Part shown: positions 36,107-38,902 of the stretch, one piece after another
Layout of the letters: the number at the start of each line of letters is the position of its first letter
Numbering within the stretch: the stretch's first letter is position 1
From: an uncultured Oscillospiraceae bacterium
GTDB lineage: Bacteria > Bacillota > Clostridia > Oscillospirales > Oscillospiraceae
Reading direction: 5' to 3'
Assembly (NCBI GenBank): GCA_950097245.1
Contig: CATNCS010000015.1
Coordinates: 1-40,841 of the forward strand
Length of the DNA stretch: 40,841 bases
Position numbers and translations under genes: made by a program
The notes under the pieces: generated by a model
Told to the model about the DNA's origin: nothing
What the model saw: the letters and a program-made list of their open reading frames with translations, nothing else
The model's database searches: none

Positions 36107-36109
36107 GGA

Positions 36110-36137
36110 AAGGGTCCCGCGGTTACGCGGGACCCTT
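36110..36137. terminator. Terminator shared by lepA and AP2 gene
   Basis: A 12-bp stem, AAGGGTCCCGCG (36110-36121) with CGCGGGACCCTT (36126-36137), and a GTTA loop. The loop contains the reverse complement of the TAA stop of the convergent AP2-domain gene. Confidence 0.85.
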
Positions 36138-36602
36138 CCCTTTTCCGGAGCCGTTCCGGCCAAATTCGGCCAAAAATTGATCGTGCAGATTCTCTTCCGC
36201 CCGTTTTCTGGCCTCTACGGCATCCTCAAAGCGGGCAAAGCTGCCCAGATATTGCCGTCTTCCTTTAAAGCAGATAGACGCCCGCCACATCCCTTTGGAT
36301 GCCCGCCAGTCCACTCCGGGCACGCCGCTGGTGTTGTTCCGCCGCACTGTCTTGGCCTCCAGCATCTCCACGCAGGTGCCGTCTATGTAGGTCAGGCAGG
36401 AGAGCCCCCGCTCCACGCACTGCCCGCAGCTGGCTGTTTTCCCGCTGCGCAGGCGGCCGGTTGTGACCACCGTCTCCCGTCCGCAGTCGCACCGGCACCG
36501 CCAGGCTGTCCGTTTTCCCATATTGGGCGCGGGCTCAATGACGGTCAGACGGCCGAATCTCTGTCCGGTCAGATTCAATTTCTTTCTGGAATATGCCTCC
36601 AC
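36123..36602 (-). CDS. AP2-domain DNA-binding protein, mobile-element type
   Basis: A 159-residue protein. The N-terminal LTGQRFGRLTVIE motif and the Cys cluster (C36, C38, C40, C59, C62) form the zinc-binding module common in phage proteins. The AP2/ERF-like domain is at about residues 91-140 (SGVPGVDWRASKGMWRASICFKGRRQYLGSF). Such proteins occur in prophages and often partner homing nucleases; no nuclease motif is seen here. The start is GTG 36602 with GGGAGG 9 bases upstream. Its stop lies in the terminator loop. The region upstream is bounded by 20-bp inverted repeats next to a serine recombinase, so phase-variable expression is possible. Confidence 0.8.
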   Translation of the reverse strand: MEAYSRKKLNLTGQRFGRLTVIEPAPNMGKRTAWRCRCDCGRETVVTTGRLRSGKTASCGQCVERGLSCLTYIDGTCVEMLEAKTVRRNNTSGVPGVDWRASKGMWRASICFKGRRQYLGSFARFEDAVEARKRAEENLHDQFLAEFGRNGSGKGKGPA

Positions 36603-36627
36603 CAGGTGCGCCTCCCGCTGTGCGTTG

Positions 36628-36647
36628 TATTTGCAGGATGGTGTACC
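36628..36647 (+). repeat. Left inverted repeat of candidate invertible segment
   Basis: TATTTGCAGGATGGTGTACC. Its inverse occurs at 36753-36772 with one mismatch (19 of 20). The central GT at 36643-36644 is reversed (AC) at the right site. It lies about 25 bp upstream of the AP2 gene start. Confidence 0.75.
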
Positions 36648-36739
36648 TTTATGTAAGGCATTTTTTTCAAATAATTTTTCGTATAAATATTGAAAATCAA
36701 GTATTTTTCTGATAGGCTGTATATGGATTGAAGTGGGGT

Positions 36740-36773
36740 ATATTTGCAGGAAGGTACACCTTCCTGCAAATAT
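36740..36773. repeat. 34-bp palindrome, right repeat of candidate segment
   Basis: Two perfect 16-bp arms, ATATTTGCAGGAAGGT and its inverse, around an AC dinucleotide (36756-36757). The right half is the inverse partner of 36628-36647. Arms around a 2-bp core match the geometry of serine-recombinase crossover sites. It lies 7 bp beyond the recombinase stop. No T-tract follows. Confidence 0.75.
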
Positions 36774-36779
36774 GCCCCT

Positions 36780-37394
<615 letters not shown>

Positions 37395-37456
37395 TCAGCC
37401 TCCTGTTTTTATTTCTCTATAGGCTGTTTTGTGGGGATTGTTGTACGTTTCAGGGC

Positions 37457-37490
37457 AACAAAGGGACCGGCCCCCGGAGGACCGGTCCCT
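37457..37490 (-). terminator. Terminator of the hemerythrin fusion gene
   Basis: A 9-bp stem, AGGGACCGG (37462-37470) with CCGGTCCCT (37482-37490), and TTTGTT following on the minus strand. Confidence 0.7.
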
Positions 37491-37519
37491 CTCCAATGCT
37501 GATTGCTTCGCGGGCCGTG

Positions 37520-38902
37520 TCAGATCAGCCCCGCGGCCCGCTGTTTTTCAAAGAAGGCGTCGATTTTGGATTTGATCTCCGCGTGCTTTAAATATTTCAG
37601 CAGATAACCCGCCGGCTTGAGAGCCAGCAGCTCCCGCACGATGGCCGGGTCGTCTGTTCCGGTGAGGAAAATCACCGGGATTTTGGCGAAGGATTTTTCA
37701 AACCGGAGCATCTCCAGGGTCTGCTTGCCGTCCACCACGGGCATCTCGTAGTCCAGCAGGATCAGGTCGGGCCGGTTCAGGGTGATGGCCCGGATAGCGG
37801 CCACTCCGGACTCGGCCATGGAGATGTCGTAGTCCTCGCTCAGCAGGCCCTCCATGCTCTTTCGGATGGTGGAGGAGTCGTCCACCACGAGGATTTTCGG
37901 CTTGTGGTGGATTTTGTCCTGAATTTCCTGCTCCTTCCGCTCCATCAGATACTTCTCCACCTCGGCCCGGGCGTTTTCCTGGCCGATGGGGGTGGCGATG
38001 CCCTTCTGGGTCAGGTGGGGGGCGATGGCGCAGTAGGCGAAGTAGCCCGAGCCGCCTGTGTTGAACAGCAGGCTGATCTGGAGCTTTTCTCTTTTGAGGA
38101 TCCGGCGGAACTGGTCGTAGGACAGGAGGTTTTCCTCCTTCAGGGAGTAGCTTTCGGCGGCGGGCAGGTGATCCAGCACCCGGCCCACAAACTGCTGGGC
38201 CGTATACCGGGAGGCGTGGACCAGCATGGAGTCCAGCTTGCTGGTCTGCACGCCCAGGATTTTTCCCACTGTGTTGACCAGCAGCTTCTCCTCAAAGACC
38301 AGGATGATCTCCTGCTTCAAATCGTCCTTCGGCGTTCCGTAGACCAGGCGGTAGTAGACCCCTTTGCCGAATTTCTCTCCGCCGTAGGCGTCGCTGACCA
38401 GCTGGGACTCCAGGTGGAACATGTCGAACACCAGCTGGACGATCACCTTCTTCATGGCCTCCTGCTCCTCGCCGGGCAGGAGGTTTTCCCACTTTCTCTC
38501 ATGCCTGCCGGTAATGGCCTGATCCTCCGTCAGGGTGTGGCCGATCAGCCACCCGCTGCAGACGCCCAGAAAGTGCTCCACCGCATCGGGGGCGTAGTTT
38601 GCCTGCTCCAGCTCCTGCTCCAGGGCCGGGAGGGTGTGTTCCCGGAAGCCCCGGTGGATGCGCCGGTGCTCCTCCAGCCCCTCGTATCCGATGGAGGCCA
38701 TATAGGCCTCCTCATCGGCAAAATGCTTCATCGCGTGGCTTCTGAAGTATTTAATCCCCTCCTGACAGGTCCACTGGCTGTCCTTTTCCTCCTCTCTGAA
38801 GGTGAAGAGCTTGTTGATGATTTTAAAAAGACGCTGGTGCTCCTTGTCGATCGCGTCCACTCCGATGCTGTACTCATCCCGCCATTCAAATTGTGTCTCC
38901 AT
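37520..38902 (-). CDS. Hemerythrin-CheX-like-response regulator fusion
   Basis: A 460-residue soluble protein. Residues 5-135 are a bacteriohemerythrin with all seven iron ligands visible: His22, His60, Glu64, His79, His83, His122 and Asp127. Residues 145-330 form a middle region (FEEKLLVNTVGKILGVQ...SMLVHASRYTAQQFVGRVLDHL) that may be CheX-like. Residues 335-455 are a REC domain: Asp341/Asp342, phospho-acceptor Asp384 in LLDYEMPV, Thr415 and Lys429. There is no kinase or DNA-binding output. The start is ATG 38902 behind GAAAGGAG. The promoter is TTGCGC, 17 bp, TATAAT. It probably links oxygen or redox sensing by the di-iron site to phospho-signalling. The order of domains is unusual. Confidence 0.85.
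   Translation of the reverse strand: METQFEWRDEYSIGVDAIDKEHQRLFKIINKLFTFREEEKDSQWTCQEGIKYFRSHAMKHFADEEAYMASIGYEGLEEHRRIHRGFREHTLPALEQELEQANYAPDAVEHFLGVCSGWLIGHTLTEDQAITGRHERKWENLLPGEEQEAMKKVIVQLVFDMFHLESQLVSDAYGGEKFGKGVYYRLVYGTPKDDLKQEIILVFEEKLLVNTVGKILGVQTSKLDSMLVHASRYTAQQFVGRVLDHLPAAESYSLKEENLLSYDQFRRILKREKLQISLLFNTGGSGYFAYCAIAPHLTQKGIATPIGQENARAEVEKYLMERKEQEIQDKIHHKPKILVVDDSSTIRKSMEGLLSEDYDISMAESGVAAIRAITLNRPDLILLDYEMPVVDGKQTLEMLRFEKSFAKIPVIFLTGTDDPAIVRELLALKPAGYLLKYLKHAEIKSKIDAFFEKQRAAGLI

Follow-up and report, generated by a model that had tools for sequence, protein, structure and literature searches.

A candidate invertible promoter between a serine recombinase gene and an AP2-like gene in an uncultured Oscillospiraceae bacterium, and its relatives in Clostridia

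Between the genes for a small serine recombinase and an AP2-like protein in an uncultured Oscillospiraceae bacterium lies a short AT-rich stretch of DNA bounded by inverted repeats, which raises the question of whether it is a DNA switch and, if so, what it switches. The window considered here is the whole stretch of DNA that was analysed, 40,841 nucleotides of contig CATNCS010000015.1 (assembly GCA_950097245.1). An earlier note, made from the letters of this DNA, had proposed that the segment carries a promoter whose flipping turns the AP2 gene on and off. The locus is very likely a self-contained phase-variation cassette, an invertible promoter for the AP2-like gene, with the window copy in the OFF state. 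The relevant features are the following.

36107-37519, unstranded: module of the AP2-like gene and the cassette, about 1.4 kb, missing from between its flanking genes in three relatives
36123-36602, minus strand: gene for an AP2-like protein of 159 aa with a GTG start, proposed to be the gene switched
36611-36616, minus strand: ribosome-binding motif GGGAGG of the AP2-like gene (a sequence motif)
36628-36656, unstranded: distal crossover site, centre GT (36643-36644)
36643-36757, unstranded: putative invertible segment, core to core, 113 bp from centre to centre or about 11 helical turns (locus L114 in the family collection)
36690-36718, plus strand: promoter-like TTGAAA-17-TAGGCT with a TG extension, pointing at the recombinase, that is, OFF for the AP2-like gene
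36735-36778, unstranded: recombinase-proximal crossover site, a 44-bp palindrome with 21-bp arms around the centre AC (36756-36757)
36780-37391, minus strand: gene for a small serine recombinase of 203 aa, a proposed cis-acting invertase (Pfam Resolvase, E 4.4e-28)

The sequence TATTTGCAGGATGGTGTACC at 36628-36647 recurs in inverse orientation at 36753-36772 with 19 of 20 positions identical, as the earlier note had reported, and none of 100 shuffles of the window reproduced such a match. The repeat extends to 25 of 29 positions when the distal site is compared with the reverse complement of the proximal one. The central dinucleotides, GT at 36643 and AC at 36756, were correctly read as lying in opposite orientation; the two sites are inverted and share the same central dinucleotide, as is characteristic of an invertase. 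The proximal site is indeed palindromic throughout, its arms being 95% complementary, and the distal site has a degraded inner arm. The DNA between the repeats (36648-36752), described before as AT-rich, contains 26.7% GC against 63.0% for the window, a value equally low in 19 of 40,736 windows of the same length, and it lies upstream of the AP2-like gene as claimed, that gene being situated beyond the left repeat. In the bacterium's own genome the 18-base repeat core has no copy with 0-1 mismatches beyond the two sites. Eight further matches with 2-3 mismatches equal the number returned by a reversed-pattern control, and were rejected as candidate sites for action in trans.

The recombinase has an intact open reading frame and matches the Resolvase family (PF00239) with 98.6 bits against a curated cut-off of 23.3. 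Its best relative of solved structure is Sin (E 1.2e-29), gamma-delta resolvase also being among the best, and the Sin alignment shows that S12, R10 and the arginines of SIDRLGRN are all kept; we take these to be the nucleophilic serine and the active-site arginines of small serine recombinases. Since the gene is on the minus strand, it is its stop codon that sits 7 bp from the repeat, and not its start as had been stated; 25 nt separate the centre of the proximal site from the beginning of that codon. Relatives of the recombinase in the best 5000 plasmid records are all less than 60% identical to it, as are those in 207 of 209 phage records, the remaining two, unannotated and faecal, reaching 64-66%.

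Whether the arrangement of sites is peculiar to the window was explored with loci gathered by their recombinase: the best 80 of 567 candidates from genomes, 80 of 140 from viral contigs, loci from the same genus, and 100 listed places fetched after a search of the whole family that gave a match at E 1e-30 or better in 145 of 400 sampled genomes. The 339 loci yielded 332 hits. Requiring the match to reach query residue 140 and the stop to lie inside the locus retained 327, among which 298 were unique at 97% identity, and the removal of 22 that were too short and one filtered for N left 275. A two-site scan detected the pair, a proximal site with a distal one in inverted orientation, at 129 of these 275 unique recombinase loci, compared with 0/825 dinucleotide shuffles and 4/270 upstream regions. 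Part of these loci had served to train the site matrix, and it is therefore the shuffles and upstream regions, rather than the raw count, that carry weight. A detected pair was absent from the other 146 loci, including some with a recombinase more than 80% identical. The expectation of the earlier note that the repeats be kept where the recombinase is kept agrees with the data: the pair is present in 73/96 loci at a recombinase identity of at least 75%, 30/52 at 70-75%, 12/28 at 65-70%, 13/52 at 60-65%, 1/22 at 55-60% and 0/25 at 40-55%. The GTAC core is close to a palindrome, which makes a direct-pair matrix control, with 128 direct and 132 inverted pairs among the 275 loci, uninformative. 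Polarity, scored site by site instead, was inverted at 124 of the 129 loci, direct at 1 and undecided at 4.

Across the 129 loci the proximal site stays near the recombinase stop, mostly at about 25 nt. This regularity bears on the reading in which the repeats are the ends of a small transposon inserted before the AP2-like gene. The absence of the module from between the same genes in three relatives would fit an insertion, but the module includes the recombinase and the AP2-like gene, both of which lie outside the repeats, and with the proximal site tied to the recombinase stop and no other copy of the core in the genome (0-1 mismatches) we rejected this reading as exceedingly improbable. At two loci, L045 and L019, the proximal half-site and core run, by eye, straight into seemingly unrelated coding sequence, and look as if a larger rearrangement had used the proximal site.

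The distances between the two sites are not continuous. For the phase test five of the 129 distances (above 200 bp) were left out, and of the remaining 124, measured from centre to centre, 47 fall at 113-116 bp, 10 at 124-128, 53 at 133-139 and 9 at 145-149, the last five being 94, 106, 160, 167 and 169; none occupies the gaps at 107-112, 117-123, 129-132 and 140-144. A period of 10.85 bp fits best (R 0.81, against a maximum of 0.36 over 500 sets jittered by up to 8 bp), and at a period of 10.5 bp R is 0.79 with a mean phase of about zero, which corresponds to whole turns. Reducing the set to a single entry for each cluster and distance at 80% identity (n=54) gives a maximum R of 0.74 against a null maximum of 0.42, and 17 representatives below 70% identity give 0.75; with 70% single-linkage clusters (n=31) the phasing is weak, R being 0.67 against a null of 0.61. 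From the helical phasing we infer that the two sites must lie on the same face of a short DNA loop. The recombinase would pair them across this small loop, of about 11 helical turns in the window, and then invert the segment. If so, the phasing is a mark left in genomes by a serine recombinase that forms its synapse over a short loop, and it is informative about how enzymes of this kind work when the loop falls below the stiffness length of DNA.

Inversion leaves a trace that can be recognized among relatives, and the earlier note had suggested a search for flipped alleles in related genomes. Segments could be aligned over at least 40 nt in 35 locus pairs, on the same strand in 24 and on opposite strands in 11; counting L015 once (with L018), the latter reduce to seven reversed pairs, in all of which the downstream genes match in the same direction, so that at the family level such alleles exist with collinear flanks. 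Four are clear: L046/L056 (segment 51% identical as is and 85% inverted, flanks 86% and 93%), L015/L018 (52% and 86%), L248/L262 (47% and 81%, flanks 67%) and L274/L275 (50% and 83%). Three are weaker: L247/L253 (50% and 71%, with site distances of 134 and 125), L016/L097 (52% and 70%) and L109/L272 (56% and 70%). A comparison pair, L287/L290, is 94% identical as is and not reversed. These reversals also bear on a reading in which a Sin-like resolvase acts on a res site, the palindrome being its binding site, and no inversion takes place. The best solved relatives, Sin and gamma-delta resolvases, speak for a resolvase; the inverted rather than direct sites at 124 of 129 loci, the reversed segments, and the lack of the site pair in all 25 recombinases at 40-55% identity speak against it, and we rejected it as very unlikely.

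Promoter motifs are more frequent in the segments of the family than in shuffles. A sigma70-like promoter score of at least 7.2 is reached by 71/129 segments and 7/645 shuffles, and a sigma28-like motif occurs in 13/129 segments and 5/645 shuffles. Promoter direction is OFF (at the recombinase) in 74 of the 129 loci and ON (at the downstream gene) in 17, with no direction assigned in 38. Among the 91 oriented loci the proximal hairpin is stronger in the OFF orientation in 62, and a difference of at least 5 kcal/mol favours OFF in 43 and ON in 5; inversion tends to create or abolish a hairpin beside the stop codon of the recombinase. For the palindrome of the right-hand site the earlier note had suggested a possible second, resolvase-like role: it is the usual recombinase-proximal site, its longer hairpin tending toward the OFF state, and the suggested extra role is not supported. 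Sigma28-like TTAA-N16-GCCGAT motifs were seen in several segments linked to TnpB or CsrA, L018 being of the sigma28 type; loci with TnpB-like or CsrA genes downstream include L015, L018, L092, L095, L109 and L272.

In the window, the proximal palindrome folds as a hairpin of -32.7 kcal/mol (z -7.80), against -9.7 kcal/mol after inversion of the segment in silico. No T-run follows the hairpin, and a strict scan called no terminator at the segment; the hairpin is a possible terminator. A bidirectional terminator or hairpin that stays fixed between two genes and does not recombine would explain the strong fold, but not the second inverted copy 113 bp away, the helical phasing of the two copies, the segment reversals in relatives, the promoter motifs in the segments or the missing T-run, and we give this reading hardly any credence. 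For the invertible cassette that we prefer, the order of parts would be a gene for a Sin/Hin-class recombinase, the proximal site immediately after it, an AT-rich segment with a single promoter, and the inverted distal site. In the ON state the promoter would fire into the AP2-like gene; in the OFF state, presumably that of the assembly, it would be aimed back at the recombinase, and the completed palindrome would form a strong hairpin after the recombinase stop, with a possible effect on transcription.

By extension from its relatives, the recombinase of the window probably flips the 113-bp segment and thereby switches the neighbouring AP2-like gene on and off. The promoter flip put forward in the earlier note is supported for the family, by the seven reversed pairs and the excess of promoter motifs over shuffles, and less so for the window itself, where no flipped allele of the exact locus was found and a strict sigma70 consensus scan of 36500-37520 called no promoter. 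L003 and L004, which occupy the same place beside lepA, are also OFF, and the segment of L003 is 85% identical to that of the window as is, not reversed. These observations touch on the possibility that the cassette is real and its window copy locked by an inactive recombinase, inactive sites or an inactive promoter, with the AP2-like gene silent, which differs from the preferred reading only in present activity. The OFF state of all three loci at the lepA position, the weak -10 element TAGGCT and the degraded inner arm of the distal site are in its favour; the intact recombinase frame, the intact AP2-like gene with its ribosome-binding motif, and the retention of both promoter hexamers and the site cores in L003, where the spacer has diverged, make a locked copy unlikely.

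Several known switches resemble the cassette in part. Mpi, the serine invertase of the invertible capsule promoters of Bacteroides fragilis, likewise inverts short promoters; it acts on many distant ones, and the window recombinase scores 47.5 against a cut-off of 272 with the Mpi family profile (NF009949). RecV-type switches of Clostridioides difficile are, in the accounts available, also invertible control regions in a clostridium, but RecV is a tyrosine recombinase. Sin, the closest solved sequence, resolves direct res sites, whereas the sites of the window are inverted. The Hin/hix flagellar switch of Salmonella combines a serine recombinase, inverted sites and a promoter in the segment, with the hin gene inside a large segment; the recombinase gene of the window lies outside its 113-bp segment. 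In the part of the source available, Hin uses a Fis-bound enhancer (PMC3798978). The closest parallel is with inversions of about 120 bp that an independent group reports downstream of hin genes at csrA-tldR loci of Flavonifractor plautii and Oscillibacter (PMC13418256, Nature Microbiology, 2026). According to the portion of that paper at hand, the recombinase is directly upstream, the inversion comes right after its gene and the promoter lies inside, as in the window, where the 113-bp segment also follows the recombinase gene at once; these loci further agree with the members of our family that have CsrA or TnpB downstream and sigma28-like motifs. They differ from the window in that its promoter is sigma70-like and the segment is followed by the AP2-like gene and then by a convergent gene read as lepA, not by csrA or tldR. 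The same portion names one target class and neither a wider family nor phasing, and on this basis the csrA-tldR loci appear to be one branch of the family. In the available text of a read-based survey of a defined gut community, Clostridia-like strains have a median of only 3 invertons per genome, an inverton group with 32 of its 33 members from Clostridia is linked to a tyrosine-type recombinase, and the word "serine" was not found in the main text (PMC11892184). In the openly accessible published papers that were searched, we found no description of the wider serine-recombinase family or its phasing.

The genes next to the segments are diverse. Downstream ORFs, taken by a simple picking rule and cut to 400 codons, were obtained for 127 of the 129 loci, and among the Pfam families listed for them (25 of 76) are TnpB-like (16), Eco57I-type methylase (7), BspA-like leucine-rich (6), CsrA (6), AMP-binding (3), SLH (3), C5 methylase (2) and sugar transferase (2); many other ORFs begin, by eye, like secreted proteins or lipoproteins. 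In L054/L055, near-identical cassettes stand before unrelated genes; successive 20-nt bins across the distal core are 95%, 50% and 10% identical. Junction pairs other than this one are less clear-cut; in L040/L044 identity declines inside the segment and recovers at the distal site. The window module itself is flanked by genes read by name as lepA and a hemerythrin-like/receiver gene. Among 28 other lepA loci of the same genus (L362-L389), lepA lies directly beside the hemerythrin-like/receiver gene, with the module absent, in L364, L370 and L388, and the stretch examined in the other 25 lacks both the hemerythrin-like gene and AP2. Tentatively, Clostridia may possess a large family of portable one-gene switches, each made of a recombinase, a phased micro-loop inverton and an orientation-dependent hairpin, with the distal core as the joining edge to new genes. 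If this were true, the recombinase would be both a switch and a means of bringing unrelated genes under phase control. A recombinase stop followed by a site, then by about 10 to 14 helical turns of DNA, the inverted site and a gene would in any case make an easily recognizable signature of phase-variable genes in gut Clostridia, from which one could predict, on sequence alone, that restriction systems, surface proteins, AP2 regulators and RNA-guided proteins vary in phase.

The AP2-like protein of the window scores 18.3 (E 0.0028) with Pfam AP2 (PF00847), below the cut-off of 33.3. Its structure model (mean pLDDT 69, pTM 0.39) has a beta-rich N-terminal part and a C-terminal part of three strands and a long helix; the five top fold matches are AP2 domains, with probabilities of 0.60-1.00 and E-values of 0.07-0.24, none at 0.001. 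The protein may be a phase-variable DNA-binding regulator. No stop interrupts the AP2 frame across the segment (218 codons); a longer fused protein was considered and not adopted because the first start in the ORF list is the GTG at 36602.

The AP2-like gene is present in 11 of 64 genomes of the genus (E 1e-20) and is found with both orientations of the segment: the window, L003 and L004 are OFF and, by eye, L340, which has a recombinase, and L345 are ON and L346 is OFF. L345 and L346 belong to one genome; their identity is 52% as they stand and 80% after one is inverted. Such repeated invertible control of AP2 genes suggests that a varying AP2-like protein is advantageous in itself. Other AP2 loci depart from the window pattern. 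The matrix shows no site in L348, and in L341 nothing that exceeds the level used. The AP2 gene of L341 is preceded by part of a recombinase-like frame (CIDRLGRNY, by eye), apparently a decayed cassette. L342, L345, L346 and L347 carry the same type of site upstream of AP2, with no recombinase match in the fetched stretch, and their invertons are perhaps switched in trans. A different inverted repeat lies, by eye, about 300 nt upstream of AP2 in L343 and L349 (GGACAAAAGGTCC-like in L343, centres 265 bp apart), perhaps the invertible promoter of another recombinase. Finally, the AP2 cassette of L099 and L254 has another repeat (AAGGCACG/CGTGCCTT) and a promoter that by eye faces AP2, which would suggest a changed site specificity.
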